This document shows positions 16,857-58,452 of a DNA stretch of 64,000 nucleotides, piece by piece. The translations under genes were made by a program, and so were the position numbers. Positions within the stretch are counted from its first letter, which is position 1; every line of letters starts with the position of its first letter. The notes beneath the pieces are model-generated. The model was given only the letters and a program-made list of their open reading frames with translations. It was not told where the DNA came from and searched no databases. Location of the stretch: the NCBI GenBank assembly GCA_946811185.2, contig OX328106.1, positions 5,144,746-5,208,745 on the forward strand, read 5' to 3'. The DNA comes from Hippopus hippopus (taxonomy: Eukaryota; Mollusca; Bivalvia; Cardiida; Cardiidae).

Positions 16857-16866
16857 CCTTTTATCT
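16857..16866 (-). promoter_or_regulatory. TATA-like box of gene A
   Basis: GATAAAAGGC on the minus strand, about 80 bp upstream of the start codon. The same box, spacing and downstream AGCGCGC-type sequence occur before gene B (49533-49542). Conservation in both paralogues supports a core promoter, with transcription starting near 16825-16835. Confidence 0.6.
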
Positions 16867-28059: not shown

Positions 28060-28703
28060 TGTAGTAAAAGGAAAACATACATTCGTTGACAGGGGGCTGC
28101 TTTCTGTGGCTAGATTCGTAGTCTATGTTTGTGTATTTATATCGAGATGACAGGAAAAATTTACATGTATAACTCAATATTGATAATCCTTTCATTATCA
28201 ATTGATATCATTGTTTGTTTTTGAGAATGCAGGTTTAAAATCATGTACATTGACGAGTTAGTATAAACATGATAGATGAGATTTATGAATTATCTCATCA
28301 TGGTACGTGTTTTTAAACCTGTCATCCCAAAAAAAACCAATAATATAAACTGATAATGGAAGGTTCATCGAGTGAGAGCTATACCAGCAGCTTTAAAGGC
28401 CCTATAGCTGCCAAAGCTAAACAATGGGTTGTTAAAATGCATCTAAGTTTAAATCATACCATTCAAAAGTATGGAAATTATTGTGAATATAACAGTCTGT
28501 TATCTGTTGCTGAACAGCACTCCAAGTGTAAGTCGCTGGCAGAAAAATGAATTTGTAAATCAGGTAAAAAAAGGACAAAATATAGAGCGACCTTACCTAG
28601 ATATATTTTACTAAGCACCGAAAACGCATTCTTCCTAACATGCGACAAGTAAAAGTAGTAAGAAATTGATTCAGTATAATGATAGATACTAAAAATGATA
28701 TAA

Positions 28704-29158
28704 ATAGAGGATATTTGTTTTTTTCGGTGAAAGATCGAAATTTATTTCATCGAGTGAACATCATCAGTAATATTTTCACGAGTGGCGCAGCCACAAGTGA
28801 AAATATTACTGATGGTGTTCACGAGATAAAATAAATTTCGATCTTGAACCGAAAAAAACAAATACTCTATTTATTTCATGCTTTTAACCCTTTCTGGGAG
28901 GAACTTTATCAAAATCCAGTACAGTCTTTTCAGTTATTCCCCGTGGCGTACCCCCTCCGCATAGCAACGCATTACAATATTACGTCAAGCGCGAGAAATG
29001 TAAGGTAAATGACGTCATATTTCCATCTGGTTGTAAGTCACGCGCATTTTACCTAGGTAACTAGAATATAAAAATCGGTATTTTCACTGGTCGTACCCGT
29101 GGAATATCGAAAAATATTTTCACCGCTATTTCTCGATATCCTACCGGAAAGCATGAAA
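28704..29158 (+). mobile_element. Hub MITE copy
   Basis: ATAGAGGATATTTG to GCATGAAA with TAA on both sides (28701-28703, 29159-29161). The full hairpin 28725-28855 has the GTGGCGCAGCCAC centre. The G-run after TTTCTGGGAGG is short. The 'gtgcgcgggaac...' segment present in other copies is deleted. Confidence 0.85.
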
Positions 29159-29549: not shown

Positions 29550-29665
29550 CTAAAGCAGTGGCTGCCCTTGTCTATTTCCGTACATCACCAGCACAGCAAC
29601 AACAAGAGCAAGAAGCAAACTCGTCAGTTCTGGCCGAAAAGCCGTCACGCTACTCGCATTGAAAT
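29550..29665 (-). CDS. Gene B exon 6 (C-terminal anchor)
   Basis: The acceptor TTTTTCTGTAACTCTTCAG precedes 29665. The exon has 116 nt (2 bases completing Asp183, 37 codons, stop TAG at 29552-29550). It encodes FNASSVTAFRPELTS, then LLLALVVAVLVMY, then GNRQGQPLL. The phase matches exon 5 exactly. No AATAAA was seen within 150 bp downstream, only weak AATATAAA. An open frame on the opposite strand (29288-29662) is its antisense shadow. Confidence 0.8.
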
Positions 29666-32600
29666 CTGAAGAGTTACAGAAAAACCCATTTTACACGAAC
29701 ATCTGAAATTCGCAATTTTGGACAAAGCACGATATAAATATAACAAAAATGAACAAAAAGAGCAACATGTTAACCTAATATTTATTAAATTTGACATAGA
29801 CAGCTTTATATAAATGTGAAAAAAGGAAAAATAGACAAATTCCTCAGTGTATGAATCTGAATTAGACCAAAATAATCAAAGACAATAAGGTATTCTCATG
29901 ACTCTTAAATTCCCCAAACTAGAGGAAGCAGTAATATACATGAATTAATTTGAAAGTAACCAGAAGAATAAGCCAATAAGGACAAAGGCACCAATGTTAA
30001 AACCTTGTACTAGAAGAATAGGACAGGAAAAAAAAAGTATAGTTCTTAAATTAGCCCCAGTGGACAGATACAGTGCTGTAAAAGTGTGAAATAAGCCAAA
30101 ATAGACATAGACAGTACCTTATAAGTCTGACATAAGACCACATGTACAAATACAGTACTAAATGTAAAAATCTTGAATTAAAAAAAAAAAAAAAGCCAAA
30201 GACAGAAAGATGTAAATCTGAATTTGACCAGCACAGACAGAGATACTCGTAGTAATGTATAAATATGAACTTATCCTAAAATGGAAAAAAAAAAGGAACA
30301 ATCTTTTTTTCTTAAATCGGGAAAAAAGAACACACAAAAAATGTACAAATCTAAAGTTGGCCAAAGAGTGCAAAAAATATTACAGCATAAAGTCTAAAAT
30401 AAGGCACAGGAGCATGAATTGTGTAAAGTCAGCGCATGGCGATCGGGAAAATGTAAAAGTGTTTATTAAACTCATGAGATCAGCGCCAATGCTTGTTGCA
30501 AGAGTGGTTTAAAACCTTCGAATGTCAGTGAACAAAAGAAAACTCGTCTCTGAACCTGTCTTTACTGACCACCAGGTTGATTTGTCCGTTTTCGGTTAAA
30601 TGTGCGTTGTATATTATATAGGGATAGGAGCTAAAGTTTTCTCTGACTTTGGTGCACACTTTGTGTTATTATATGGCTTGCAACACGCGAAAAGGGGCAT
30701 TTGGACATTTGCGTTAAGTGTCGTCTCGGATCAGCCTAATCCGAGACGGCACTTTACGACTACATTGGATTTTGTGCTACAATAGACTTGTGCAAAACAG
30801 GAAATTACATAAAAACGGACAGTGCCGTCTCGGATTAGCTTGTGCAGTCCATGCAGGCTAATCCGAGACGACACTTTACGCAAATGTCCGAATGTCCCTT
30901 TTCGCGTGTTGCAGGTCATATACCATACAGAGGCGATCCGCAAATGTTTTTAGTAACGATTTGTTCCATGATCTAGCGATGAAAATTTTGGTGAGTCGTA
31001 ATAGACCAATAGAGCTTCAGTTGCAATTTTAGGGTGTAAATTCTCGTTCAAAAAAAAGTTTCTTTGCATACTTTTCCATTTTTCCTTACAGTAAAGACGT
31101 ATCAATATGAGCATTATTTCTGTCAATTAACTCCTTTTAATTCATTCGGTGACATATCAATATAATTGACTTGCAACACGCCAAAAGGGACAGTTAGACA
31201 TTTGCGTAAGTTGTCGTCTCGGATTAGACTGCGCAGTCCGCGAAGGCTAATCCGAGAGGGCACTTTATGGCTACATTAGACTTTGTTCTATAGTAGACTT
31301 GTGCAAAACAGAAAATTATTGAAAAACGAAAAGTGTCGTTGCGGATTAGTCAGCGCGGAGTGCGTAAGCTGATCTAGGACTGCACTTTACGCAAATGTCC
31401 GAATGCCCCTTTTCGCGATTGCATGCCATATAGGTTTGGTTAGCATATAAAATACTGATAAGCTCCCTTTAAACCAGAACATAACTCATTAGTCAAAAAT
31501 ATAATACAAGCTTACCACACGTCTGTGGAGAAATAGCGGCTAATTCCGAATGCTGAAATATGTCCGTTATGACTGTAGCCGCTTCCTCGCCACAGTGGTC
31601 TCTTACAGTATTCCCTATGCATTGGTTGACCTTCTGCATTCCGCTGTATACAAAACATGACTTTCATTCATTCTCATTTCATACTAAACCCTTAACGTGC
31701 AGAATTAGTTAACGACGTATATGACAAATTTTTCTAACGGACAGACTTTTTTTATAAAACTTTGCACATACAAAGCTCATCATGTCTCTTGGAGATTACA
31801 GTAAGAAAAGATGTGGGTCACCGTGCTCGTTTCTGAGAAATTTGTCTTTGAAAAGGGTATATACAGTTCCAAAATTCAGCTTATATTGGATATAAAGCGC
31901 CTTTCTTTAATACTCAATTAAACGGGAAAATTATGTACATCATTTTAATGAAAAATCATATATTTTTGCATAAAAATATACAAAAGCCTTGTTTTGAGCA
32001 TGGTAAATGTACAAATGTGCATGTTATATATGGATCATTGGGTAAAAAAGGGAGATAATTTGACCGAATTAAGGGTTAATCTTAAATAAATAAATACTTT
32101 CTAACGGACAGATTTTTCATAAAATTTCCACACTTATAGAATTTATAATTCTAAACAATAAGAAAAAATAAAAATGGCATCTGTCTGTGCTTGTTTCGTC
32201 AGAAAAACAAGGTTGAAGGTCACTGTATAAGTTATAAATGATCAGACATAGTGGGAAAATGAGAAATTGCTCAATAGGAGCGATTTCTCCTTTTCCAACA
32301 ATAATTCTCAAAGCGGAAACAGCTATACTTCAACAGCTTTAAATTTAGTAAGCAGCGTTTTAATTATTTCACAGTAACAGTTCAAAGATCCATTTTTGTC
32401 TCTTCACCAATACTACCCGGAGAAAGTGCTACTTGTTTCAGTGCACCAATAGTATTACCATTATGTGCAAAAAATATATAGGTGCAGTCTTGATTCAATG
32501 TCAACGACAAAAATACATGCGCAGTAGGATGTGTGCGAACATTTGTCATATACGTCGTTAAATTAAACTCTCAAGCCGACAGTAAAAATTCGAATGTTGC

Positions 32601-35600
32601 TATAGGTTATAATAGTTGACCTGGCAGGGCGGATTTACATGTATTATCGAGAATGTTCACGAGATGAAATAAATTTCGATCTTTCAGCGGAAAACAATCT
32701 ATTTATTTCATGCTTCTAGCCCCCATTTTTTCGCGGGGGCGGGGGGGGGGGAGGACTTACATCTTACATCAAAATCAAGTACACTTGTTTTCGGTAATTT
32801 ACGTTGCGTAACCGCTCCGCATAACAACGCATTACAATATTACGCAAAGAGCGAGAAATGTATGGTAAATTACGTCATACTTCTATCTGGTTGAATGGCA
32901 TACGCTGTTTACCTAGGTAACTAGTGCGCGGGAACTACTGTTTCCGCCTTCAGTAGAAGAATTAGAAAATAAAATCGATGTTTCTCACTGTTTGTAACGA
33001 TGAAATATCGAACAATATATTAAATTTTCACCATTATTTCTCGATAAACTACCGAAAGGCACGAAGTACAAAATATATTGACTGAAGCTCTGTCGAGGAC
33101 TAAATAAATGGTGTAGAATTATTGTTATCTTACAGGCTGGAATACACAAGCTGGCAATATAGGTCCAAGACCTTCTGAGCAGCCTGATCATGGTCTCAAC
33201 CGTCCGCGACAGGACCTTTTTCGCTTTCAAATGGCGTGGAAAATGCCAACTTAACATATAGCAGACGACAAAAATTGAGTCCAACATTTATTAGGGTCAT
33301 TACATCCCCATGTAACAAATCAACTGTAGCTAACATTTAAGGGTGTGTCACCATAACGTGATAACATAGAAATTGTTCGTCAAGACAGATTTCTCTATTT
33401 AACCCTTGAGATACTAAACGCAACTAACGGATCTTTTGCGGACAGTGCAGTCTAATCTTGGATTTACACTTCTCGATTCGGAAGATTATCTTTACCCCAA
33501 AAAATACCTTAATAATAAGCAAAGTTCAGATTTTACTCACGGCTTGAAAGTTTCATTTCACTTATTTAGCAGGAAAAGGGTTAACTCGTGTTTCCACAAG
33601 TTGTCTGTACAGGAAAGGAAGCCGTCGGCAGGTGGCAAAATCGCAATGAACTAATAGTTTCTACTGACATTATTTCAATACATCATGCTGAATCCAAGAA
33701 TATTGCACGCATGTTGTAGAAATAGACTAGTTGACAATACAGGTCCAAGACCTTCTGACCAGTCTGATAGCGATCCTTATGGAGTCACGGTCTAACAAAA
33801 GGGAGTTTGATGTATCTCCGTGATAAAATAATTATACCAAGTGTTACCGGAGACCACTCCTTCATGCATGGCTTCATCCCGGTTTAAGTACAATACATAA
33901 CAACTGCGTTAGGGAGAATTCTCTTTAGCTCAGTGGTTATGGTGTTGGCCTTTCGTCCGGACGTTCTAGGCTCGAATCCTGCCCGATCCCTGTATTTCTG
34001 CTATGCATTTGTTCCTTTGTTTCTTTGTTGAGGACTTTGTTCGTAAGATGGGGAATCGTCCGGGATTGGCCATTGAGCCATTTATCCCATTTGTTGTCCA
34101 AAAACGGACTTTCTGCCCATTGAGGCTTTGATCAATCAATTTGTTTCTTTGTTGCGAACTTCGTTCGTAAGACAAGCAAATCACATGCATGGTAGGTCTA
34201 ACTATGAATCCATAAAATCCAGTTTGTCCGACAACACTGAGACAGTTACATGAGGTGGCATTGTCCTTGGACATAAAGAAAATATATAAATAGAAAACGA
34301 TTACGACCCACACGTCAGCCTGCGTCGACTGCGCTGGCTGACATTGGTCGACACTTTTGTAGATGTATTAAACCCCTTTTTCACAGAGTGTGGTCCTTTT
34401 GCTGCAAAGTTGCGTGTTTTTTTATGGGGGGGGGGACTTAAATAAAAATCCAGTACATTTGTTTTCGGTAATTTCCCGTGACGTGTCCCCTCTGCATAAC
34501 AACGCATTAAAATATTAGGTAAAGCCTGAGAAATGTAAAGTAAATTACGTCATATTTCCATCTGGTTGAATGGCAAGCACTGTTCACCTAGGTAACTAGT
34601 GCGCGGGTACTACTGTTTCCGCACTCGGTTGAAGAGTAACACAACAGCCGTATCCGACTGTAAGGTGCCCGTTTCGCGCTGCACAAACATTACGACGATT
34701 TGAGAGCGTAAGGTTTGTGCTTCACGAAAGTTTACGAAATCGTGAAATTTACCAGTCTAATACAAAGAGTGCAACACGAGAAACAGTAATTATTACTCGA
34801 ACAAATTGACCTGAAATTGACCTTTATGCAAAGAATAATTAGAGAATGAATATTTTTATCATCACGTATACTCGGACGTTACGGGAATTCTATTAACAGT
34901 AAATGTCGGGTTCGACCCTTTCAATGCCGCAGTCAAAACAAGAAACTTTCGCAGATGACATGGATGAAGATCAGAATACACAGAAAGTGCATCTTTGATC
35001 ATTGTCATTCGCCACGACTTACCTATTCAAACTAACAAAATCATTTTATTCAGGTTTCTTAAAAGTATTATTTAAAGACAAGATAAATCTAGTAACCGCA
35101 TAAAGAGTTGAAAATCGTTCACATATTTCCGCATTTAGACGACAATAGCCGAAGCTAAGTTTGGACAGTAAGTCAAGCGTGTAATATATGGTGATAGAGG
35201 TCATTTATTTAATGTCAATTTATTCGGGTAATACCAGTCGAATACGGCTAATAAAATCGGTATTTCTCACTGGTCGTAACCATGATATATTCCACCATTA
35301 ATTATCGATAAACTACCAAAAAGTAATATGAGTTATTGAAGTTCTAACCTACATACCTGCAGTCTGGTGTCGGTCCGTCGTTATTGATGGTTGTGGTTTT
35401 GGCACATTGGTTGATTCCATTCTGAACCTGGTCATTATTCCAACAGCTGGAGTGTGATACTATAGCTGTACAATAAAAAAAATTTGCTTTCTTAACCTTC
35501 TACCAAAAAAATCCCAAAACAAAACGATCTGTTTGGAGACGGAAATTGCAACAGCGTTATCCATTCACCGACAATTGATTTTACCCATCACTTTTCGCGT

Positions 35601-38600
35601 GTGCCAATAGTAAATGCCGTTGAATGATTTTTCTTTTTTTTTTATTTAGTTTTTTGAAAACTGCATTACTACAAAAAAAATCACAGGGTTTAACGATCTT
35701 AACAATGAAAGTTTCTTAAAGAGAGTTTGTAAGAAGAGGAGAAAATGTTGATAAGAAGCATTTTCTCCTTTTCCTACAACTTTTCTAAACCGTTTCGAAA
35801 CAATAAGCATTATTTTCGGTTTGGTCGTAATTCATCAAAGGCGCAGCATACGTAACGCACATTATGCAAAATTGCGTATTTATAGAAAAATGGTGACAGG
35901 CCAATTTTTTTTATCGCTTTATAGAACAAAGCCATCTTCATAATAAAGCCTAAAACTTCGAAATAAAAAGAAACAATTTAATAAAAAATCCGCCCCATAG
36001 TGGAAAGCCAAATCTTGCAATTTCATCCTGTTTCTTTTCGGTGGAAAATGTCACTGTTTAGGACAATGTCAATCAAGATCAGACTACACGTGCTGTGCAG
36101 TCTGATCTTGATTTACATTGTCAGCAAAAGAATGGTAATTAGCAGTCTAAGAGTGAAGCAACATTCCCGATTGGGAGTGGGCAATGGTGCTGAACCCTTG
36201 GTTACGCCCCTCTACCCAACACTAGAAAAAAAAAAGATAAAAGTGTAGCAACCAGTTTTGCAATAAAAACGAGAACTGCAATAAATTATTGCTAAACTCG
36301 TTGCGATGACAATATTTATTACATTTCACTTCATGTTTTATTGCAAAACTGGTTGTGAAGTGAAATGTAATAAATTTTCTGTCATTGCAACGAGTTTTGC
36401 AATAATTTATTGCAATTCTCGTTTTTACTGCAAAACTGGTTGCTACATAGCATACCGTCGTATTGATCCTCGCACATGTATTGAATAGACGAGAAATAAA
36501 GACGAACTGCTTGGATTTTATCTGAACTAACTGGACAGTCGGCGATCTCAGTCTCCACACAAGGTTTGAAAGTTGTGAATCCACTGTAGGAAACATAAAA
36601 ATTGGTGAAATACACGTTGATGAAACAAAAGTGTAAAAGAAATGTAAAGAAATGTAAAGAAATGTTAAGAAAGAAAGAAAGACAGACAGAAAGAAAGAAA
36701 GAAAGAAAGAAAGAAAAAAAATGAAAGAAAGGAAAATGGATAAAAGAAAGGAACAGAATAAAAGAAAGGAAAGAAAGAAAGAAAAAGAAAACAAAGAGAA
36801 CGAAAGAAAGAAAGACAAAAGAAAGAATGAAAAAAAGAAAGACAGAAAAAGACAAAGAAAAGAGAAAAAGAAAGAATAGGAAACAAAGAAAGAAGTTAGA
36901 AAAGAAACGAAAGAAAGGAAAAAAGGCAAAGAAAGAAAGTGAATGGAAGGAAGGAAGGAAGGAAGGAGACAAGCAAATAAACAAACAAAGAAGGGAGGAA
37001 GGAGAGGAACAACAGCAAGAAATAGAAGTTGAAACAGAAGAAATAAAAGACGGAGAAGAAGGACAAATATCGGGAAGGAGAATTAAGAGGTCAAAGAAGA
37101 CGAAAACAACAACAACAATAACAACAACAATTACAGTCATTGCAACCTTAAACAATAACAGGACATAAGACATGAAACATCAGAAGAGAAGCATATACAC
37201 GCTAGTCATTCACTTTTTACCAGATGACAATTTTGACACCTGTTCAAAATGAAAGCCTTCAAATAAAATGCGTCTCAAAACATGAAATTTGCCTTTCATT
37301 GGGTAGCAAAAATAGTGGGAAAAGGAGAGAACGCTGGTTACTACCATTGTTTTCCTTTTCCTATATTTTCAAAAGTCTCAGCCTCAGGATTCGTAAAAGT
37401 CTGGAATGTTTTGTAATGGGTGAAAACTTCAAGAAGAAGAAACTGAGAATGGTAGAGGGAATGAAAAAAAGAACACAGCAAGTGTGATAGTAGTGAAAAG
37501 TAGCAGAAATAATCTGATGTAGTAGAAGTAATCCTATGTTGTAGTGGTTTAATTTCCTCCATCTCCTCCACGAATGTCTTTTAGCGCGACTGTCTTCGCA
37601 GAAAACGTCCAGTTATTGTGATAGCGATGTCGTCGTCATCTGATACATGTGAGGAAAGTAGTCAGTGACTTGGAAAGAAAGTTGTGTCAGTACTGGTGTG
37701 AGAAAACCAGGAAACACATGCGTAGTTGTACTGACCGCAGTGATAAGACTTTAGCTTTTAATTAAAGCGGCGTTAAGCTCCAATACAAACAAAATGTCTG
37801 CGTCGTGAAAATCTTTGTCATTCTGTAATTAATATCTCAATCATTACTGCAGATATTTACTTCAAACTTGGACCAGATGTAAACTGAGGAGAACCTATAC
37901 GACCGTGGTAAGTAACCATCAAAATATTTTGACAGTTATGCCTCTTTTTTGACTTAGAATTTTTAATGAAAATGGAGCGCTTGCAGTCGAGCGTTGGCAC
38001 CCGCATACAGTGTTCTTGTTCTGTTAAGTTGTATACATACACATACCTACAGAATGATTGCAGTTGACTTGCAGCGGGTATGCCAGTAAATTGTGGTATA
38101 CCATCATCACCGAATGAGTTTTTTACGCATTGTTCAATTGCTGCTGAGTCACAAGAAAGTACGGGATCTGAAAGTAAAAGTGAACTTTCATTAGTAGCGG
38201 TGCTCTAAATTGGAAAAGGGTGGGGGGACTGGCTATTCCGTTTTACATAGACATTGCCAACTTCAAAACTGTATCGACAGTGAGTTTCTAAGGAAATAGC
38301 CGCTAAACCATCGAAGAATGAGAAACAAAAGTGCCTTTACAAAATGAGCATAAACTGGATTTTGACCCTTACTTTTAGGGGGGGGGGGGTTGGTATTTTG
38401 TATAGCATGGAAATTTCGTAACGGGCTGCCGTTTTCTCTCAAATGGGGGGGGGGGGGGACAACAACACCAACAAAAATTGCGTCTTTAATTTACGACATT
38501 CAAAATCATAGTAGGCGACCCTAACACTTTGTTATGGACCTTTTTAATAACTTATTGTGAAAAAAAAAAACATGCTCAGTGTCAATTTTCCGCATGTCAG

Positions 38601-39739
38601 GTTATGCTGGTTACAGGCATTTTCTAGTCTTCCCACTATATTTTCAAGAGCCGTGCGTATTTGGGGCGTTAAAACTCGGGATTGTGTGGTAAGCGGTTAA
38701 ATGAAAAATAAGTCAATTGCAAAAACACAAATTTTGCCAGAGTCATTCTGCACCAGTCTTTACAGTGTAGATCCGTGATTGCACCGCACGTTTTGTGAGG
38801 TTTGATATTGATCTACACTGCCAATAAAAGCGTCTTAGGGCGAGCTTATCAGCGTTTTGGTGATAATATGTAATGATGGACGACATAGGAAGATGTCAAA
38901 TTCCATTTTATCTGCGTCTTTTGATTGCATAAAGTTTGCCAAACAAAACTTTATAAAACTCATCCAGCTTTTAAGTATCAATTATCACATAAAACCGCCT
39001 CCAGCAATATGATAAAACCCATGACTCATTCTACACTGTCCACGAGTGTATAAATCGTTTTCGTTGCGCCCTCACTGTCTCTGTAAAACTCTTGAACGGG
39101 TGATAAACAGCCGATTTGTCTGTTTCTTAAACACCAAAATCTTACTGTTGATGTTCAGAGTGGTTTTCGCCGAAGAGTTGACTACGCTGTCCGCTTCGAA
39201 CTTGTAATCGAGAAGCCTTTATTAATAGATAACATGTTATGCCTGTGTTCTTTGACCTTGAAAGTGCTAATAACATCACCTGGAAATATGGAATTTTAAG
39301 TCTCAGACGCTGCCTTCCCCTTTAGATCTCTGCCTTCTTAAACGAACGGCTCTTTCGAGTCCCCATCGGTAACATCTTATAAGGCGCTCGAGAACAGGAC
39401 CTCGGTGTACCACAGGGTTGTATTCTATCTGCAACTCTTTTTTAGTATTAAAATCAATATAATTGTAAAAACTATAAACCCAGGGGTTGACAATACCCTA
39501 TATGTAGACGACTTTTTCATATGTTTCAGGGCTCGAAACATGAACAATGTAGAGGGACAAGTACAGCAATGTCTCAGTAAGTTCCTGTCTCGGTCTAAAG
39601 AAAAAAGTTTCAAGTTTTCTAAAACTAAAACTAGGTGTATGCACTTTTGCAACCTTCGACGTCACGATGCAAATCCTGATCTTTTCTTGAATAAAACATG
39701 CGTTGATGTTGTCTCTGAATTTATTTATTTATTTATTTA

Positions 39740-39781
<42 letters not shown>

Positions 39782-42700
39782 GTGTGTGTCATTTTTACCC
39801 AAAGCTTACATTTATTCCACAGATCATAAAGAAATAAAAAAAAAAAAAAGGCCATCAGTCTTCTCAAAGTCTTCGCCTATTCTGAATGGTAGGGGAGTAA
39901 AAGAAAAGTTCTTCCTCGCCTTGATCGTTTCTTGTCCGTTCCAAATTAGACTATGGATCAATTGTCTACGAATCGTACCTTGAAGGTCTTCATTAAATGA
40001 AGGCTTGTCCGTTTAGTTGCCTCTATGTCGAGACGAATGAACCATTTCAGTACGCAAAAGATGGCCCCTAAATACCTTTTAAAACTTAAATCTTTCCCTT
40101 GTAATCCTACTCATAAGGTTGTTAAGGAAGCCTGATGCAACACTGCATTTTGGAAGTCGCTTAGAACAACACATAAGTAATTTTAATGTGGATCTGGATA
40201 CTATTGCACAATATAAATCTGCAGATATCAAACTATTGAAACGGCGGTGTTTCGTTTTGACCTTACTTCCGATAAAAAATCAGTAACAGACCACAGTACT
40301 ATCTAGAGTTCGATGTGTACAGTGAGATGAAGGAACAGTGCTTCTCCCTCAAGTCTATTTCACGAATGGGTCTTAAGATGTTGATTCACATGCAACAGCC
40401 GCTGTATACGAGACGAAAATTAAAAGCGTCGCCTTTCCAATAAATCTTCTGTCTTTTCGGCAACTCCCTTGTTACATAAGCATAAGGGCAATGACAAGGC
40501 TGACGTAACTGCCAAGTCGACATTGTCCCTTCCCCAATCCAAGTTCCATATGAAGGTTTTAAAACACTCGATTAGTGAATACAATCAGATCAATTTTGTA
40601 CAAAATGTACATTACCGAATCTAAAAAGTAGTGTTTGGGTTTGGCTTTTAAAGGTATAATTTGGACTATGTACCATTTATAAGAGTAACCCTATTTTAGG
40701 ATGTTATAAAGGTTCATTGACATTTCAGATACTTAAAGTATTTCTGTAATTTTTCTTCCTAAATAAGGTCGACAATTAAAAAACTTACTGTCATTATTTT
40801 ACTGCAACCGAGCTGATTTCATTCTATCCCATAGTCAGATGTGATCAGGTGAAATAACAATATCCCGTCACCTCTTCATATTACCGACGCAGTCCGCGCA
40901 GGCTAATCCGAGATGACAGTAAATCCTGGAATACTCAATTGCTTGCATTCATCCAAGGGACGTAAAGAGGGCAGTGCTGTGATTTTTACCTAAACGAGTT
41001 ATTCGTAGTTGCGACCAACTTAGTAAGCTGCTGCCAAAACGAGTTTCCGTTGCAGAATCCACATAATTATGTTAAACGAAAGAAATATTTCCAAAGGAAG
41101 TATTTATTTGTTGATTTATACGTGACCCGTCACGCGGAAAGGGACAATCTGGGAATTCCGTACATCAATTAGATGAAAACAGATCAACGATAGTGCTGGT
41201 CAATTTAAGTTGACAGTTCAGAAATGATTGTATAACAATGTAGAATGACCACTTTTCATACAGAAAATATCAAAAAAGCGAAAAGTGTCGACCCTGGTCA
41301 GCCTGCGCAATTCGCGCAGTCTGATCAGGGTTGACATTTTTCGCAGTTCCCAGATGGTCCCTTTTTGCGTGACGGGTCAATTATTATTTCTAAAAGCATC
41401 CGTCTTTAAACACTAAAACACTTGTAACACAATTAAACTAAACGAGGCTCAAAAGGATAGCATTGAAGGCTTATTACAATATCACGAAGTAGCAAATACT
41501 TTGAAAAATATGAAAAATGACAAAAGCCCCGGCATTGATGGTTTTACGACAGATTTTTATAAGGTATTTTGGGGTAAAATAGGAAAGTTTGTTGTAAGAG
41601 CTTTAAATCATGCTTTTTTAAATAAATCCTTTTCTAAAAATATAAAATTAGGAACAATCATATGTATACCTAAGGAAAATCAACCAAAACAGTTTTTAAA
41701 AAGTCTGAGACCCATTACTCTCTTGAACGTATTATACAAACTTGCGTCAGGCAGCATTGCAAATAGATTAAAGTCCGTTTTAAATCAAATCATATCAAAA
41801 GAACAAACTGGCTTTCTAAAAGATAGATTTATAGGAGAGAATACTAGATTAGTGTATGATATTATGCAATACTGTGATGAAAGAAATAAACTTGGTCTTT
41901 TAATGTTGATAGATTTTGAAAAAGCCTTTGATTCAATTTCTTTCAAGTTCATAGAAAAGACACTAGAGTTTTTTAACTTCGGCCGAACTTTTAAAAGATG
42001 GATTAAATTATTTTTATACAATACCGACGTTTGTGTACAATTAAATGGCTTTTTGTCAGAATAATTCACCGTAAAGAGAGGTTGCCGTCAAGGTGATCCA
42101 ATTTCCGCGTATCTATTTATTCTATGCACGAAAATTCTAAATATCAAATTAAAAAATAATGAAAATATCAAAGGTATACAAATACAAAATAAAGAATACT
42201 TAATCTCACAATTCGCTGACGACACGACACTCTTCCTAGACGGTTCACAAAAGACGCTGAACAGTACTTTAGATTTATTACAAAATTTTTCACACATTTC
42301 AGGCCTTAAAATTAACTTTGACAAAACAAAACTGATTTGGATTGGTAATATGAAGTACATGTATAGTACTCGCTCAATAAAAACTAAATGGAAATTATCA
42401 TGGGGAGAAACCCAATTCAAGTAACTCGGTATTTTATTTGACGTTGATCTAAAAGAAATGGTAAAATTAAACTTTGAACCAAAAGTACAAAGCATGAGTA
42501 ACTGTATACGATATTGGAAAAAAAGAAAATTAACACCTTTTGGAAAAATAGCTGTAGTAAAAAGCATTCTAGTATCCATCTTAACTCACTTATTCGTAAG
42601 TATTCCGTGTCCATCAAATAACTATTTAAAACAAATTAGTGACATGTATGGGACGGAACGTGTAATAAAATTAAACAAAAAGTGCTAATTAAAGATTATG

Positions 42701-45700
42701 AAGAAGGCGGCTTAAAGATGATTGACTTATTTAATTACAATCTGAATATGAAAATTAAATGGATAAAACAACTCATTTCCGATGGTAACAAAGACTGTTA
42801 CGAATTTACCAACAATATTTTCGATATTAATAAACTATTCAATTCTGGCAGAAAGTATTGTGAACAGCTCTGCAAAATAATAAACAATGAATTCTGGAAA
42901 GACGTTTTATACACACTTATGACGTATATGTCAAAATGTTATTTTACAAATTGGACAGAACTAATCAATATGCCTCTATTCTATAATGAAAACTTAATGA
43001 TTGGCTCTAAGCACTTTTTTAATCACGTTCTGTACAATGGTGGAATAAGGTATGTTAAAGACATGTTAAATGAAGATGGTAGCTTTAAAACCTTGAATGA
43101 CATGAAAAATACCATTAATAACGGAATCAACTTTTTAGATTTTTATAGCAAAACATAACATCACTAACAAGAATAAGTCATTACAAGGTTTCCATAACCC
43201 AAATATAAACTGCTATTTTTATCAAATAATTATTAAGTCTTGTAGTAACAAATTCACATATAACGTTCTGATGAAGAATAACGAAAAACCGTCATTTCAT
43301 AGTAAGTGGAACAGCACTTTTCCAAACTCTAATATTAATTGGAATGTTATACACAGTAATGTTTTTAAATATTTAAGTGACTGATACTCCCAATGGTTTC
43401 AAACAAGAATAATACACAGAATTCTTCCAACAAACTCGCTTCTTTCTAAAATGAACTTGGTCGAAACAAATATGTGTTCTTTTTGTAACAGATGTGAAGA
43501 TACTATAGCACATTTATTTTATGAATGTCAAAATATTAAACCTATTTGGGAGCGCATTTTAATACTTGTTAATAATTTAGATCAGTTGATGTCAATAAGC
43601 AAACAGAACGTGCTTTTGGGTTCAAATGAAACAAATCTGAAGCTAGACAGATTACTTCTTGAAACAAAAAAATATATTTACAAATGTAAAAACAAAGATA
43701 TTAAACCATCTTTATTAGGCCTGAAAAATAGTCTCTTCTATAATCTTAGCATCATTAGAAGCTCAAAAAATTATGAAAATGAACGACGGCTTACGACAAT
43801 TGTAGAATACATCAGTCAAAACCTCCCATAAACCAAAAGCATTTTTTTTCCATGCACACGAACATGCTGCAGCGCTGAAACCTCAAAAGAGTACCTACCT
43901 TATGTTACGTTTCCTGCTTGCTTTTGACGTTTCAGTACTGTACATTGAACCAAGATCAAAGTAACACTTTATCAACACAATCACTTTCACACTGACGCAA
44001 CTCTCACACAATTTGTTTTTTTTTTTTAAACACATTTATATATAAAAATAAGTTTTTTTGTCCACATATTAAAAAAAAAAAAAAAAAAAAAAAAACTGTG
44101 ACAAATAAGAAAATTAAACCTGTTATTAGTCATTATTGTTAAAATCTTCTTATTTTAGTAGCCATATCAATATAGTAGTACAATAGTAGCTGTAAAAAAT
44201 CTGGAATCTGTAATTACGACTTTTGTTTCTATTTTAATGTTCAATTACTAACACGGAATACTAACAACGATCTGTAAGGTGCATTGAGGGATGGCCACGA
44301 CCCTCAAGTACCATAAAGACGTGGACAATAAAGTTTAACCCTTTACCACACAATGACGCCTTTTAACGCCCCTGAAGAAGAGGCCTTTTGAAAACATTGT
44401 GGGTAAAGGAGAAAATGCTGGTAACCATTTGAGCCACTATGAAATTGTCGTCTGCAAATGCTTTCAATTTGGATAGGTCTTAAATTTTGCCGTGTGGTAA
44501 AGGGTTAAAAAAAAAAAACAAAAAAACACGGTACTTCAGGTTGTCTTCAGGCAGCCAAAAACAAGCCGGAATGCATCCTTCTTTTTCAAAAAAAAAATTA
44601 ACTGTGCTCTTATATTTAGGGGGTCAAGTGCATCTTTCTAATGCACCATACCAAATAAATCGTGGCACAAAATGGATTCATTTTGTCTCAAAAAATGTCG
44701 GATCATGAGGTAAAATTGTCCTTTGATATGCAGAAAATGTACGAAAAGTAAAAAAGGTTTCGAATCATGTCAGCCAGCGCATGGGTCTCAGACTTTTTAA
44801 AAACTGTTTTGGTTGATTTTCCTTAGGTATACATATGATTGTTGATCTATGAAATTGTCGTCTGCAAATGCTTTCAATTTGGATAGGTCTTAAATTTTGC
44901 CGTGTGGTAAAGGGTTAAAAAAAAAAAAGAAAAACACGGTACTTCAGGTTGTCTTCAGGCAGCCAAAAACAAGCCGGAATGCATCCTTCTTTTTCAAAAA
45001 AAAAAATTAACTGTGCTCTTATATTTAGGGGGTCAAGTGCATCTTTCTAATGCACCATACCAAATAAATCGTGGCACAAAATGGATTCATTTTGTCGCAA
45101 AACATGTCGGATCATGAGGTAAAATTGTCCTTTGATATGCAGAAAATGTACGAAAAGTAAAAAAGGTTTCGAATCATGTCAGCCAGCGCAGGCTGACATG
45201 AGTTAGTACTTTTTGCAAATGCAAACACCATTTTTGACAGAACATGCTCGATACAATTTCTTAGGGCATTCCGCCAAGACTGTCTTCACTGAATTTACGC
45301 AGTTACGTCGGCCTTTCCGAAATGATACCTTCCGTTTTTATGTAATTTTCTGTTTTGAGCAAGTGTACTGTAACACAAAATCTAATGTATTCGTAAATTG
45401 CCATTTCGGATTAGCCTGCGCGGGTTGCGCAGGCTAATCCGAGATGACACTTTACGCTAATGTCCGAATGTCCCTTTTTGCGTGTTGCAAGCCATATGTC
45501 TTCTATATTAAAAATTTATATTTTATATTGAAATATTTATTGTCTATAAAATATATTTATTATGTATGATCATATATAACAATTGTGTATAAAATATATT
45601 CATTGTGTATAAAAATATTTATTGAGTAAAAAAGTATATATTGGGTTGGGTAAAAAATATATTTACAGTGTAAAAAAGTATTTATTTGGTTAAAATATAT

Positions 45701-45876
45701 ATAAATCGTGTTTAAAAAATATTTATTGAGTATAAAAATATTTATTGAGTAAAAAATATATATAAGGTATAAAAATATATTTATTGTATATAAAAAATAT
45801 TTATTGGGTTAAAAGATATATATCTTGTGTATAAAAAATATTCATTCTGTATAAAAATATTTATTGGGTAAAAAAA

Positions 45877-45958
<82 letters not shown>

Positions 45959-48900
45959 GTGTATGAAATAAATTTATTGTGTATAAAAATAGTTATGGAG
46001 TGAGAAAGTATATATTGTGTATAAAATAAATTTATAGTGTATGAAATATATATCGTGTATAATTCCCGAAAATGTTTACGTGCGAAATTAAAATTCATTT
46101 GCTAGAAAAAAGATATACATATGGTATCAGGAGACCTCGTACCCTGGAGAACTCGTAAGCTTAACTGGACGGTAATGAGTTTTTATGCGTCTTCCGCTCT
46201 CCTGTCGAACGGGCATCTGACTCGGCTACAAGGCCTGCAGTGTTAACAAGCAAAATTGCAGTTCAAAACGAATGCAGTGCTTTGCTAGGATCAGGATTCA
46301 GTAGTTATTATCAACAAATATACACCCCCACCCCCCCAAAAAAAAACCCTTATGCAATGCGTTGATTGATTGTTATATGGTGTTTAACTCCGTTTTCAAC
46401 AATATTTTAGTTACATAGCGGCGGCCATTGCACCTATCTGTGCTTGCCTGGAGTTTCTTTTTATCAGTACTCCGCACAATATTCTTTCCAAGCCACTGGC
46501 TGATTTCCCAAATAACCGTCGTCGAAACATTGGTCAGCAGTGAGAGAGGAATGAATGCTGTTGCAGTGACTATCATCAATCCTTGGAAATAGATTGGCTG
46601 AGCCGGAGATCCAACTTGCGACCTCCAGTTCTCAAGTCCTGTACGCTACCGAGTACCGAATGAGCTACCAGGGCTCGGCTCCAAAGCCAGAGGGAGCAAG
46701 TCAGCACACAACTTCAAAATACATTATGCCAAACAGATAAATTACCAAATAATGAGAATTTCTATGTTTTGACACATTTTCTTACAAGCCCTTTCGTGCT
46801 TATAGATTTTTTAGTTTCCATGGTAAATGCCAGTATCTCTGAGACACCTGACGGAACAATTTTGGACTTGTCAAATTCAAAGCATTCAAAGACTGCATAT
46901 CAAATATGGTTCAAATTGTGGAATATGATTCTGGAATAGAAATCATTACTAGAAAACGAGAAAAGGCTTTTGAGAATATATTTGGAAAAGGATAAAATGC
47001 TGGAAACCAGCATTTTATCGTTTTCTAATAAATAGAGGATATTTGTCTTTTTCGGTTCAAGATCGAAATTTATTTCATCGAGTGAACATCATCGGTAATA
47101 TTACCGATGGTGTTCACGAGATGAAATAAATTTCGATCTTGAACCGAAAAAAACAAGTATTCTATTCATTTCATGCTTTTAGCCCTTTCTGGGAGGAACT
47201 TTATCAAAATCCAGTACAGTTCTTTTCAGTTATTCCCCGTGGCGTACCCCCTCCGCATAGCAACGCATTACAATATTACGTCAAGCACGAGAAATGTAAG
47301 GTAAATGACGTCATATTTCCATCTGGTAGTGAGTCACGCACATTTTACCTAGGTAACTAGAATATAAAAATCGGTATTTTCACTGGTCGTAACCATGAAA
47401 TATCGAAAAATATTTCACCGATATTTCTCGATAACCTACCGGAAAGCATGAAATAATGATTTCTATTCAAGAGACGCATTCTACAATTTGACTTAGTGAT
47501 TCATGAGTTTAGAATGCAAATGGATCGTTTGCTTGCATCCTACATCCTATATCGTCATCTATGAACCACGCAGGATCCTGCAGAGATATAAATAATAACT
47601 CTGAAGGCTCAAAAATACTACATCATATTTATTTATCCATTAAATTATAACAAATATTATGCTATGCATTCAACATACTTTATAACAACTCTTGAAATAC
47701 ACATGCGATGATATGTTAATAAATGAACCAAGCTCTGGCAAAAAGGGGCTAAATGCATCTCGGTGACACATGATGTTAAGCATAATTTTTATAATTATGA
47801 ATATATAAAAATCCGTTATGTCTTAGTACCAACAAAATCATGAGATAGGATGATCCTTGGACATGCAGAAAACTCTGCTAACCAGCATTTCTCCGTCTTC
47901 CACCCTTTCAAAGACAAATCTTTCCTTTCAGCCTATTTGGAGATATCTAAAATTTTGCCATCTGCTAAGGATTTACTATTTACAAGCTGGAAAAATTTTA
48001 AAATGCGAATGAAAATCTTTGTAAATTACAAATTAAACGTGGCTCAAATTACCAGGAATTGTATTTAAAAGATTAGAAATCATTGTGCGAAAAGGAGAAA
48101 ATGCTGGTTTTCCTCCTTTTCCCACTATGTATTCAGAGACCTTTTTCAGAGTCATGAAAACTCAGGATTGTTTGTACAGGGTTAAAGTTATTCCAGATAT
48201 ATTTATAATGTTATCATGTCAACCCTTAGAACTCCAAAGTGACCCAACATTTTCAGTCTTCTAAAGGCCAGTAAAATTAGATTTCAATGTTGCTATTACC
48301 CACGATGTCTCAAAGAGGACAGTGTAGATCACAGATCAGACTGCAATGTTGTGTAGTCTAATCATGATCTTAACAGGCTGCAACCTCAACTACAGTTGTG
48401 AAAAGTGCTACAACAATAAGACTTTACCAAATAACTTATTTTAGACTTGTCCAACTTTGAAGGACTTGCAGAGAATGGAATAAATGAGACTGAAAGTTGC
48501 TGGACATGTAGAAAACATTGTGGCCAAAGGAGAAAATGCTGGTTACCAATGTTTTTGGAGGTCTGAGTCAGATGCCCGTCCGACAGAAGATCGGAAGGAC
48601 GCACAAACACTCACTACCTTCGAGATTAGGGTACGAGTTCTCCAGGGTACGAGTTCTCCTGACACCCATATTTTTTTTCTAGTAAATGAATTTTAATTTC
48701 GCACATAAATATTTTCGTGACTTATACACAATAAATATTTTTTATACACAATAAATATATTTTATAAACGATGTATATATATTTTTTAACTCAATAAATA
48801 TTTTTTATACACAATATATATATAATTTTACCCAATAAATATTTTATACACAATAAATACATTTTATACACAATATATATATTTTTTTACTCAACAAATA

Positions 48901-49448
48901 ATTTCTATACACAATATATATTTTTAACCAATATAGTCTATATATTTGTTACTCAATAAATATCTTTATACACAATGAATATAATCTTATACACAATATA
49001 TATACATCATACATACATAATGAATTTATTTGTAGACAATAGATATCTTAATATAGAATATAAATCTTTAATATGGAAGACATATATTACCAGATACAAT
49101 ATTACAACGTATTTCACGCCATAGAGGGGTATATTATTCCTGGTTCCAGTCTGATTTTTTTTCCTTCCACATATTCTAACGTTACTTTGTCAAAATTAAG
49201 GACCCTTTTTCCCTTTTACAACAGTGGTTTTTTTTTTAGACGTGATAGGGTGAAATCAAATATACGTATCTGGCAAAGAATAGAGATAGGCAAAGAGAGA
49301 CAAATAGACGGACGGACGGACGTGACGAGGGACAGAGACAATGTGGAATTCAAAACGGGCGGACAAGCAAATAACAAAAAGTCGTACCTATTTGAATGAC
49401 CAGGAATCCTACAACACAGAGTGTCCCAATGAAAACTCGAGTCGCCAT
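29550..49448 (-). CDS. Gene B: secreted, membrane-tethered 12-cysteine protein, complete
   Basis: Six exons: 49448-49388, 38167-38047, 36583-36456, 35465-35357, 31643-31516 and 29665-29550. All introns are GT-AG with phases 1, 2, 1, 2, 1. Joined length is 663 nt, exactly 220 codons plus stop. Residues 1-20 form a signal peptide (core TLCVVGFLVIQI). Cysteines at 26, 34, 60, 69, 77, 98 form module 1; 111, 124, 139, 148, 157, 182 form module 2. A sequon N-A-S lies at 185-187. A hydrophobic run at 199-211 near the C-terminus fits a GPI-attachment signal or a single membrane span with a nine-residue tail. Family not recognised; a DUF19-like cysteine module is possible. Likely a cell-surface binding or defence-type protein, but that is a guess. 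Introns of 11.2, 1.5, 1.0, 3.7 and 1.9 kb are full of transposons. Confidence 0.86.
30672..30920. mobile_element. TIR MITE 'TTGCAACACGCGAAAAGGG', copy 1
   Basis: Terminal repeats TATGGCTTGCAACACGCG and CGCGTGTTGCAGGTCATA. Inside are two inverted CGGATTAGCCTG...CAGGCTAATCCG palindromes ('gtcgtctcggatcagcc', 'aggctaatccgagacgac'). Inserted in intron 5 of gene B; absent from block A near 1270. Confidence 0.8.
31161..31431. mobile_element. TIR MITE 'TTGCAACACGCGAAAAGGG', copy 2
   Basis: Ends TTGCAACACGCCAAAAGGG and CCCCTTTTCGCGATTGCATG. Internal 'cggattagactgcgcagtcc' and 'cgaaggctaatccg'. Same arrangement as 30672-30920. A partial third copy ends at 45490 and a fragment lies at 40885-40920. Confidence 0.75.
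31516..31643 (-). CDS. Gene B exon 5 (second half of module 2)
   Basis: The acceptor TTTTGTATACAG precedes 31643 and the donor GTAAGCTTG follows 31516. The exon is 128 nt (1+126+1), one codon longer than gene A. It encodes GMQKVNQCIGNTV, HCGEEAATVI and a final PQTC. Confidence 0.87.
31713..32557. mobile_element. TTAA-flanked non-autonomous DNA transposon, copy 2
   Basis: TTAA at 31709-31712 and 32558-32561. Terminal repeats CGACGTATATGACAAAT (left) and ATTTGTCATATACGTCG (right) match perfectly over 17 bp. Interior as in 11306-12209. The empty site survives in block A at 4667-4670. TTAA duplication is typical of piggyBac and Kolobok; the ends do not identify which. Confidence 0.85.
32640..33070 (+). 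mobile_element. Hub MITE copy, 5' hairpin truncated
   Basis: Only the right hairpin arm remains ('gagaatgttcacgagatgaa', 'ataaatttcgatctttca'). G-runs at 32735-32752, 'ttacctaggtaactagtgc', end 'aactaccgaaaggcacgaag' is worn. Confidence 0.7.
33925..34000 (+). mobile_element. tRNA-derived sequence (SINE head or tRNA pseudogene)
   Basis: A-box-like TTAGCTCAGTGGTTATGG at 33931-33948 and B-box GGCTCGAATCC at 33970-33980 are correctly spaced for RNA polymerase III. No acceptor stem pairs convincingly, so a functional tRNA is not claimed. CTTTGTT-rich sequence follows. Confidence 0.5.
34180..34400. mobile_element. MITE family with TGTCAGCCTGCGCAGG palindrome, copy
   Basis: 'atgaatccataaaatccagt', 'tgaggtggcattgtccttgg', 'acgtcagcctgcgtcgactg', 'cgctggctgac', 'cccctttttcacagagtg'. 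A hub MITE follows at once. Confidence 0.6.
34425..35325 (+). mobile_element. Hub MITE interrupted by a CCGTATYCGACTG element
   Basis: Hub body at 34425-34636 (G-run, 'ttttcggtaatttcccgtg', 'cacctaggtaactagtgcgc') resumes at 35248 ('ataaaatcggtatttctcac', 'tggtcgtaaccatgat') and ends near 35325. The insert (about 34648-35246) has inverted ends CCGTATCCGACTG and CAGTCGAATACGG and no evident gene. Confidence 0.75.
35357..35465 (-). CDS. Gene B exon 4 (first half of module 2)
   Basis: The acceptor TTTTATTGTACAG precedes 35465 and the donor GTATGTAG follows 35357. The exon is 109 nt. It encodes SSCWNNDQVQNGINQCAKTT and ends PTPDC. The CWNNDQVQ core is identical in gene A. Confidence 0.88.
35700..35790. 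mobile_element. Snapback MITE core
   Basis: Hairpin 'aggagaaaatgttgataaga' / 'agcattttctccttttcct'. Only the core remains. Confidence 0.5.
36060..36125. repeat. GATCAAGATCAGACTGCAC palindrome family
   Basis: 'gacaatgtcaatcaagatca', centre 'cacgtgctgtg', inverted 'cagtctgatcttgatttaca'. Confidence 0.65.
36246..36446. repeat. Foldback element next to exon 3 donor
   Basis: Near-perfect hairpin of about 100-bp arms: 'gtagcaaccagttttgcaat', 'aaaaacgagaactgcaataa', 'cgttgcgatgacaat' ... complement ... 'ttttactgcaaaactggttg', 'ctac'. An internal sub-hairpin reads 'acatttcacttcatg'. It lies within ten bases of the gene B exon 3 donor (36455). Confidence 0.85.
36456..36583 (-). CDS. Gene B exon 3 (second half of module 1)
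   Basis: The acceptor TTTCCTACAG precedes 36583 and the donor GTATGCTATG follows 36456. The exon is 128 nt (1+126+1), one codon longer than gene A. It encodes FKPCVETEIADC and YMCEDQYD. The FK-CVET and YxCEDxY cores are shared with gene A. Confidence 0.88.
36650..37110. repeat. Expanded polypurine (GAAA)n tract
   Basis: About 460 bp of A/G-rich sequence with GAAA, GAAAG and GGAAGG units, upstream of the gene B exon 3 acceptor. It is the same position as 7862-8060 in gene A but over twice as long. Long Phe/Ser- and Lys/Glu-rich frames here are artefacts. Confidence 0.88.
37205..37420. mobile_element. Snapback MITE copy
   Basis: 'tttttaccagatgacaattt', 'aaagccttcaaataaaatg', core 'ggagagaacgctggttacta' / 'ttgttttccttttcc', right end 'gattcgtaaaagtctggaat'. 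Its left end is shared with block A (8275-8335). Confidence 0.6.
37740..37795 (+). mobile_element. SINE 3' fragment
   Basis: 'gtgataagactttagctttt' then 'aaagcggcgttaagctccaa' and 'tacaaacaaa', matching the 3' end of the SINE at 12694-12928. Confidence 0.6.
38047..38167 (-). CDS. Gene B exon 2 (first half of module 1)
   Basis: The acceptor TTTTACTTTCAG precedes 38167 and the donor GTATGTGTATG follows 38047. The exon is 121 nt. It encodes PVLSCDSAAIEQCVKNSFG, DDGIPQFTG and a final QLQSFC. The NxFGDDGxP core is shared with gene A. Confidence 0.87.
38590..38700. mobile_element. Snapback MITE half copy
   Basis: 'tgctggttacaggcattttc', 'cttcccactatattttcaag', 'gcgttaaaactcgggattgt', 'gtggtaagcggtt'. 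The left half is absent. Confidence 0.5.
39120..40660 (+). pseudogene. Decayed LINE: reverse transcriptase and RNase H remnants
   Basis: Fragments in shifting + frames follow the order of a jockey/I-group pol protein. The catalytic region is readable in one frame at about 39405-39720: NPGVDNTLYVDDFFICFRAR (YVDD motif), followed by FKFSKTKTRCMHFC. Downstream come a YLLKLKSFPCNPTHKVV segment (near 40065-40125) and an RNase H-like GNDKADVTAKSTLSLP (near 40488-40535). Many stops and frameshifts interrupt it, and a (TTTA)n expansion (39717-39780) sits inside the coding part. It lies in intron 1 of gene B and is certainly inactive. Confidence 0.75.
39717..39780. repeat. (TTTA)n microsatellite
   Basis: TTTATTTATTTA runs with TTTTATTT variants, inside the decayed LINE. 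Confidence 0.9.
41123..41379. mobile_element. TIR MITE 'TGACCCGTCACGC'
   Basis: Ends TGACCCGTCACGCGGAAAGG and CCCTTTTTGCGTGACGGGTCA. Internal palindrome 'tggtcagcctgcgcaattcg' / 'cgcagtctgatcagg'. Adjacent to the 5'-truncated LINE at 41430. Confidence 0.8.
41430..44336 (+). pseudogene. 5'-truncated Tx1/L1-like LINE
   Basis: Readable from about 41440. The RT finger KNDKSPGIDGF (41516-41548) is followed by SLRPITLLNVLYK, LIDFEKAFDSI and, after one nonsense TAA at 42062-42064, RGCRQGDPISAYLF and the catalytic QFADDTTLF (near 42210-42235). A second TAA interrupts at about 42421. Frames then change near 42675 and near 43150. A C-terminal zinc-finger-like region MCSFCNRCEDTIAHLFYEC ends with a stop at 43831. 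A non-coding 3' part follows to an AATAAA near 44328. FADD and the C-x2-C...H...C tail fit the Tx1/L1 group. No endonuclease is present. Two stops and two or more frameshifts mean it is inactive. Confidence 0.8.
44338..44510. mobile_element. Snapback MITE copy
   Basis: 'ccctttaccacacaatgacg', half hairpin 'aaaatgctggtaacc', right end 'gtcgtctgcaaatgctttca', 'ttgccgtgtggtaaaggg'. It abuts the LINE 3' end. Confidence 0.65.
44439..45190. repeat. Recent tandem duplication, about 343-bp units
   Basis: 44439-44782 and 44849-45190 are almost identical: 'atgaaattgtcgtctgcaaa', 'cacggtacttcaggttgtct', 'aacaagccggaatgcatcct', 'aatcgtggcacaaaatggat' and 'tcatgtcagccagcgca' in both. Differences are few and mostly in homopolymers. 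A spacer of about 66 bp separates them. Confidence 0.9.
45290..45490. mobile_element. TIR MITE 'TTGCAACACGCGAAAAGGG', partial copy
   Basis: The right half is intact: 'cggattagcctgcgcgggtt', 'gcgcaggctaatccgagatg', 'aatgtccctttttgcgtgtt', 'gcaagccatat'. The left terminal repeat was not found. Confidence 0.65.
46353..46683 (-). mobile_element. tRNA-derived SINE, different family
   Basis: On the minus strand the head reads GGAGCCGAGCCCTGGTAGCT, CATTCGGTACTCGG and a B-box-like GGTCGCAAGTTGGATCTC. The 3' end is 'aacggagttaaacaccatat' then CAATCAATCAACG. The body differs from the SINE at 12694. Confidence 0.65.
46838..47031. mobile_element. Snapback MITE interrupted by hub MITE
   Basis: 'gagacacctgacggaacaat', 'caaagcattcaaagactgc', core 'ataaaatgctggaaaccagc' / 'attttatcgttttct'. 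The hub MITE at 47032-47453 cuts it off. Confidence 0.65.
47032..47453 (+). mobile_element. Hub MITE copy
   Basis: ATAGAGGATATTTG to GCATGAAA, with TAA at 47029-47031 and 47454-47456. The hairpin (47050-47160) lacks the GTGGCGCAGCCAC centre. Body is nearly identical to 28860-29158, including the same internal deletion, so these two copies form a subfamily. Confidence 0.85.
47748..47880. mobile_element. MITE family with TGTCAGCCTGCGCAGG palindrome, left half
   Basis: 'aaaaaggggctaaatgcatc', 'cggtgacacatgatg', 'atcatgagataggatgatcc', 'ttggacatgcagaaaa'; then truncated. Confidence 0.5.
47881..48560. mobile_element. Cluster of snapback MITE copies
   Basis: Copy one: 47895-48180, with 'tttggagatatctaaaattt', core 'gagaaaatgctggttttcct' and right end 'gtcatgaaaactcaggattg'. 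A GATC-palindrome fragment lies at 48315-48385. Copy two: 48415-48560, with 'tttaccaaataactta', 'aaggacttgcagagaatgg' and 'gaaaatgctggttacca'. Confidence 0.6.
49388..49448 (-). CDS. Gene B exon 1 (signal peptide)
   Basis: ATG at 49448 in strong context (AAAATGGCG). 61 nt encode MATRVFIGTLCVVGFLVIQI plus one base, then the donor GTACGAC. Same length and phase as gene A exon 1. Confidence 0.86.
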
Positions 49449-58136: not shown

Positions 58137-58452
58137 TTTTTCGGCTCAATTCTCAGTTAATACTCAGATATCTGCATACAATCATCCGCGTTCCTACTTT
58201 ATGTCTACTGACGGTATACACAGAGTGACTCGACAATGACGTCACACGTGCACGGGAGATAAGCGAATCAGGGGAAGTAAGCCATGTACCATTTTTAGGG
58301 CCGTATATCAGAGTGACAATTCGGCCGTGGTTTATGGCATGTTACAGGGAGGTATTTATGAAAAATGACGGACACATGTTTAACTGACATCATATGCAGC
58401 TGATTAAAGGACAAAAACAGTCTGGTCAAAATATTTTAGGATTTGCCCTTTA

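Follow-up and report, generated by a model that had tools for sequence, protein, structure and literature searches.

We ask whether six short exons separated by long introns, found at one locus of the bivalve Hippopus hippopus, constitute a working gene, and if they do, what kind of protein the gene encodes and whether that protein is held at the membrane. The window is the whole stretch of DNA that was analysed, 64,000 nucleotides of contig OX328106.1, and all positions refer to it. The original prediction consisted of six exons with the lengths listed in Table 1, GT-AG borders and a join of 220 codons plus a stop, and the same structure, here called gene A, was rebuilt from the minus strand. 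The four internal exons were chosen from open AG..GT segments of the predicted lengths, each with at least two cysteines. The joined exons total 663 nt, they start in phases 0, 1, 2, 1, 2 and 1, and they are separated by introns of 11220, 1463, 990, 3713 and 1850 nt, all five with GT-AG borders; intron 1 bears out the claim of introns up to 11 kb. The precursor has 13 cysteines, one of which lies inside the signal-peptide-like start, so that the predicted count of 12 is correct for the mature part.

Table 1. Positions of the two gene copies and of other features in the window.
Feature	Positions	Strand	Description
Gene A exon 1	49388-49448	-	61 nt; start codon and signal-peptide-like segment; ends in phase 1
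Gene A exon 2	38047-38167	-	121 nt; cysteines 1-3 of the first half
Gene A exon 3	36456-36583	-	128 nt; cysteines 4-6 of the first half
Gene A exon 4	35357-35465	-	109 nt; cysteines 1-3 of the second half
Gene A exon 5	31516-31643	-	128 nt; cysteines 4-6 of the second half
Gene A exon 6	29550-29665	-	116 nt; C-terminal hydrophobic tail and stop
Gene B exon 1	16720-16780	-	61 nt
Gene B exon 2	9282-9402	-	121 nt
Gene B exon 3	7684-7808	-	125 nt; one codon fewer than gene A
Gene B exon 4	5927-6035	-	109 nt
Gene B exon 5	4477-4601	-	125 nt; one codon fewer than gene A
tblastn matches corresponding to gene B	16780-16703, 9418-9284, 7816-7688, 6036-5929, 4603-4478	-	
Upstream of gene A start codon	49450-50013	-	543 bases align to 16782-17348 (upstream of gene B) at 83.6% identity
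Non-LTR retrotransposon	60147-63369	-	ORFs with Exo_endo_phos (2.6e-7) and RVT_1 (2e-36)
Broken LINE-like element	41417-43831	+	RVT_1 (9e-17) in first ORF; reverse orientation within gene A intron 1
THAP-domain ORF	57792-58145	-	5.5e-10
Part of interspersed repeat	28690-29165		matches about 10 other places in the window, in both orientations (for example 47028-47456, 88%; 8496-8997, 80%)
Charged 120-residue ORF between genes A and B	21403-21762	-	no Pfam match at 0.01

The gene has a second copy in the same window, gene B, which is new relative to the original prediction. Gene B lies 3′ of gene A on the same strand, and a low-stringency tblastn search of the window with the joined gene A protein returned it as five collinear minus-strand matches besides gene A itself, with E values between 0.011 for exon 1 and 7e-14 for exon 5. 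Exons 1-5 of gene B keep the splice borders and phases of gene A, and their join is open for 180 codons. At the protein level the copies are identical at 106 of 180 aligned positions and have all 12 mature cysteines in common; at the nucleotide level they agree at 53 of 61 bases in exon 1 and at 105 of 125 bases in exon 5. Profiles built per exon matched strongly at genes A and B only, among the matches listed, the next best match having an E value of 0.013 (exon 1 profile). The likeness of A and B extends over the 564 bases preceding the start codon, so that a likely promoter region was probably duplicated along with the gene.

Two intronic stretches of likeness stand apart from this pattern. 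Just upstream of exon 5, positions 31645-31712 and 4603-4670 are 94% identical over 68 bases, which is above the identity of exon 5 itself and could reflect local gene conversion or a splicing element. A block in intron 4 of gene A (31709-32561) is 88% identical over 829 aligned bases to a block in intron 1 of gene B (11302-12213); it is not collinear with the gene duplication and is probably a shared mobile element. The window holds further elements of this kind (Table 1). The broken LINE-like element inside intron 1 of gene A helps to explain the 11-kb length of that intron, and the interspersed repeat, which matches itself in inverted orientation at 28690-28886, resembles a non-autonomous DNA element. 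For the LINE ORF at 60147-62078, relatives of up to 57% identity occur among the 120 listed of 2948 matches; the 14 of these 120 that are labelled with an organism are without exception bacterial assemblies (Candidatus Thiodiazotropha in 10 cases, Sedimenticola sp. in 3 and a symbiont of Lucinoma myriamae in 1), and most of them are named for symbionts of lucinid clams. Clam-symbiont assemblies can contain host DNA, which makes a bivalve or related mollusc a plausible source of the element.

We now turn to the comparison of the two copies, and to noncoding controls, to establish whether the pair is coding. The controls consist of hand-picked blocks of noncoding DNA, limited to what BLAST could align. 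Between A and B the lengths of exons 1-5 differ by 0, 0, 3, 0 and 3 nt. Of 147 overlapping homologous 109-base pieces of noncoding DNA, 37 differ in length by a multiple of three, and at that rate five whole-codon differences out of five have a chance of about 0.001. For the cysteines, given 93 identities in 160 mature positions, the presence of all 12 among the identities has a P of about 0.001. The open frame of gene B adds little, because new stops appear in 35 of 2147 noncoding triplets and a 180-codon frame would remain open by chance with a P of 0.05.

Other common measures of coding were less discriminating. The dN/dS ratio between A and B is 0.589 (bootstrap 0.40-0.86, with 0.35% of the replicates reaching 1 or more), the corresponding ratio for noncoding pseudo-codons is 0.78, and 224 of 2000 noncoding samples of 180 fall at or below 0.589. 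By dN/dS the exons thus cannot be told apart from noncoding DNA, and purifying selection was dropped as a main argument. Using one nucleotide aligner throughout, we counted 12 gaps in 419 aligned exon bases (7 of them frame-breaking, largely compensated) and 66 in 2400 noncoding bases; the rates are alike, so the gap rate does not decide coding and it was likewise dropped. The exons are not more alike between A and B than their 60-base flanks. The notion that the exons evolve faster than the introns was also abandoned, as gapped alignment of the flanks has a noise floor of 0.71 identity for unrelated 60-mers.

Taken by themselves, a dN/dS ratio and a gap rate not clearly different from those of noncoding DNA, together with an exon identity no higher than that of the flanks, are compatible with a pair that is not a working gene, that is, with a noncoding segmental duplication or a decayed pair whose open six-exon join arose through selection among many possible joins. 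Such a pair would nonetheless have to show, by accident, whole-codon length differences in five exons of five, 12 of 12 mature cysteines and the same splice borders in both copies, and A and B would have to match CPG4 and DUF19 independently, which none of eight shuffled sequences did. We judge this explanation very improbable. On the strength of the frame, the cysteine scaffold, the common splice borders and the Pfam leads, we take the gene as real. The original join is more than a chance construct for exons 1-5, whose collinear second copy differs from it by whole codons and has the same phases and GT-AG borders. The picture drawn from the aligned copies is one of a fixed frame and cysteine scaffold within which the remaining residues may change freely. 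More generally, support for a short-exon, long-intron gene can come, without transcripts, from a diverged copy nearby in which the splice borders, the cysteines and the whole-codon exon lengths are preserved.

The mature protein is organized as two halves, each with six cysteines and each coded by two exons. In gene A the cysteine spacings are 7, 25, 8, 7 and 20 in the first half, 12 between the halves, and 12, 14, 8, 8 and 24 in the second half; in gene B they are 7, 25, 8, 7 and 19, then 12, then 12, 14, 8, 8 and 23. Introns 2 and 4 share phase 2, and each interrupts the codon that directly follows the third cysteine of its half. When the halves were compared with each other, shuffled sequences scored as high in 76 of 2000 cases for gene A and in 16 of 2000 for gene B; for the two cross pairs, they did so in 676 and 516 of 2000. 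An old internal duplication is therefore suggested by the intron phases and the order of the cysteines, and not by sequence similarity. Modelled alone, the exon 5 piece forms two helices with a mean pLDDT of 77, and the exon 3 piece gives a poor, non-helical model (pLDDT 58) that was not used. A fold search with the exon 5 piece produced 27 matches, none at E <= 0.001 and the best at E 5.7, a result that is meaningless for 42 residues.

To which protein family does the pair belong? The original prediction left the family unnamed; the matches now point to the vicinity of CPG4, DUF19 and DUF1397, with all scores below the curated cut-offs. Both copies have weak similarity to CPG4 and DUF19; gene A is also similar to DUF1397, and gene B to RGM_N. 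For gene A, the Pfam matches are DUF1397 (PF07165) at 4e-4 with 20.3 bits (mature part alone, 1.4e-4 and 21.8 bits; cut-off 25.7), CPG4 (PF15481) at 5e-4 with 21.0 bits (mature part 21.9; cut-off 32.7) and DUF19 (PF01579) at 6e-3 with 16.9 bits (mature part 18.3; cut-off 23.2). For gene B, they are CPG4 at 7.1e-5 with 23.7 bits, DUF19 at 0.01 with 16.1 bits and the RGM N-terminal domain (PF06535) at 0.013 with 16.1 bits (cut-off 24.2). A fourth gene B match, at 0.1, was judged surely noise. None of eight shuffled mature sequences matched DUF1397, CPG4, DUF19 or RGM_N, and three of the eight had some other weak Pfam match, the best at 0.056. No curated cut-off is reached, so we do not claim formal membership in any family.

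Each lead combines a likeness with a difference. The match to DUF19, or T20D4.11-like domain, extends over the greater part of the ectodomain (residues 51-170 in A and 57-172 in B), but the scores lie under the cut-off and gene A may carry a C-terminal membrane tail. DUF19 has about 12 conserved cysteines in a single secreted domain; genes A and B have 12 mature cysteines in common, an agreement in count. CPG4 (chondroitin proteoglycan 4) is the best lead for gene B and nearly the best for gene A, at residues 53-126, but it is below cut-off and its 94-position model spans only about half of the ectodomain. DUF1397 matches gene A in two stretches, whereas it has no match in gene B. Given these results, a distant relation of the gene pair to this extracellular cysteine-rich group is likely.

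The RGM_N match of gene B, weak as it is and confined to residues 57-96, raises a different reading, in which the protein would be an RGM-like cell-surface signalling co-receptor whose helical, cysteine-rich N-terminal module binds a growth factor. Such a reading would be in keeping with the GPI anchor of RGM proteins and with the disulfide-bonded helical bundle that forms their N-terminal domain. But the score is well under the cut-off, gene A has no RGM_N match, and the remainder of an RGM protein, a von Willebrand type D module, is absent from the 220-residue protein. We regard an RGM-like co-receptor as very improbable.

Broader searches identified no relative. In a word-based search of 5.8 billion proteins, the joined protein had 209 word-sharing candidates and the A+B alignment had 153, none of them at E <= 1. 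The PDB, searched by sequence and by profile, contained no relative up to E 10; gene A had no match in NCBIfam; and nothing in the window reached the Rfam gathering score. Pattern scans of IMG/VR (134, 76 and 114 matches over three scans) and of GTDB genomes (51 and 19 over two scans) yielded no match that was confirmed as a relative. In the collections searched, few animal genes split into exons would be expected, which limits the no-relative result.

Earlier work describes the neighbouring families as follows. In C. elegans there are 51 DUF19 genes, of which 42 have a signal peptide and 14 are up on infection, with proteins of 140-220 aa; for the 17 DUF families of that study as a whole, homologues outside nematodes are typically lacking (PMC3534327). 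Eleven of the C. elegans DUF19 genes are in a single cluster on chromosome V, single-gene RNAi gave no phenotype, and overexpression of the DUF19 gene T20D4.11 lowered brood and growth and, in one line, left adults shorter (PMC8410859). Two C. elegans DUF19 genes are also listed in PMC3527274. In a table entry, Pacific oyster K1PB63 is given as DUF19 domain-containing, with the 19 sitting in what appears to be the mass column (PMC10058639); as far as that entry goes, the DUF19 name has been applied in bivalves. One list of secreted mosquito proteins includes a DUF1397 protein that has an orthologue in the peritrophic matrix (PMC5865745), and DUF1397 is listed in centipede venom studies (PMC5869384). 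The passages searched in a lucinid transcriptome report (PMC6836662) contain nothing on the gene A/B family, and a literature search that combined bivalve, cysteine-rich and 'DUF19 domain-containing' found no paper. A starfish paper (PMC10448888) was rejected as a DUF19 source, as it concerns another DUF number caught by a word-start match (e.g. DUF1943).

It remains to consider whether the protein is tethered, which depends on exon 6, the least certain part of the gene A model. With the other five exons fixed, and with 31515-29400 searched, two last exons of 116 nt close the frame, one at 30525-30640 and one at the position adopted here; the adopted exon encodes a strongly hydrophobic tail and the other does not. 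Scored by a small matrix trained on the eight other acceptors of the two genes, the exon 6 acceptor reaches 0.8 vs 10-16 for those eight, and a score at least as high occurs at 5.8% of 3251 AG sites. Three alternative AG acceptors score 6.7-11 but would yield tails of just 7, 4 and 1 residues. We compared the tail of exon 6 with phase-1 terminal tails of 15-80 residues that have an acceptable acceptor; between 31475 and 16800, 19 out of 323 tails qualified, and that of exon 6 is the most hydrophobic of the 19. Window-wide, 2 of 133 such tails match its near-end hydrophobicity, exon 6 itself being one of the two.

In gene B, no counterpart of exon 6 was seen at positions 1-620 of the window, and no last exon of gene B was found within the window. 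The homology between A and B 3′ of exon 5 stops at A 29970 and B 580, so exon 6 of gene B may lie beyond the window start. Consequently, gene B neither confirms nor excludes exon 6.

The gene may thus be real and its last exon wrong, with the true terminal exon elsewhere or with a read-through of exon 5, in which case the protein would be soluble and secreted instead of tethered. Several observations agree with this: the acceptor of exon 6 is the weakest of the model, gene B offers no counterpart in the window, read-through of exon 5 meets a stop after 7 more residues in both A and B, and C. elegans DUF19 proteins are counted among large putative secreted families (PMC3534327). Set against them, exon 5 has a good donor in both copies, which makes read-through unlikely; the hydrophobicity of the exon 6 tail is rarely matched by the comparison tails; and the missing exon of gene B may simply sit outside the window, given where the homology ends. 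We consider a wrong last exon unlikely, though it is a serious contender.

A membrane tether of the gene A protein, predicted from exon 6 only, is accordingly described here as possible. A GPI-anchored surface protein would have an N-terminal signal peptide, an omega site with a small residue and a C-terminal hydrophobic segment that closes the precursor. In exon 6 the hydrophobic stretch has a 13-residue mean Kyte-Doolittle value of 3.1 and is followed by 10 residues; by inspection, a hydrophobic run of about 16 residues precedes about 9 mostly polar ones. A short run with a polar end is at least as compatible with a short membrane anchor as with a GPI signal. The original prediction of a cell-surface or GPI-anchored extracellular protein therefore divides into two parts: a secreted, cysteine-rich product of a spliced gene, upheld by the second copy, the 12 of 12 mature cysteines and the Pfam leads, and a tether, which hinges on the last exon.

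In the explanation that we find probable, the window contains, in two tandem copies, a real spliced animal gene, whose product is a signal-peptide precursor with a mature 12-cysteine ectodomain of two six-cysteine halves and a presumed role at the surface or outside the cell. The protein would enter the ER, where six disulfides would form and clamp short helices. The C-terminal hydrophobic tail from exon 6 would then display it at the cell surface; if exon 6 is unused, the protein would be released instead. The family would expand by tandem duplication, and its members would diverge while the cysteine frame stays fixed. Arguing by analogy from secreted nematode DUF19 and insect DUF1397 proteins, we consider a stable extracellular binding or barrier protein the most likely product, and our best guess is that it would act in binding or as a barrier at an epithelial surface.

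A bolder proposal can be made from the same comparison. The pair may represent a lineage-specific, fast-diversifying family of bivalve surface proteins, built from two six-cysteine helical units and expanded in tandem, in which selection would fix the frame and the cysteines while the rest changes about as fast as the neighbouring introns; it would then be a candidate recognition family, with possible roles in immunity, gametes or symbionts. We hold this proposal to be improbable. The gene pair looks like an ordinary relative of little-studied secreted cysteine-rich families, and the original prediction was right for exons 1-5. The locus thereby adds a probable mollusc gene pair near secreted cysteine-rich families that are known mainly from nematodes and insects.
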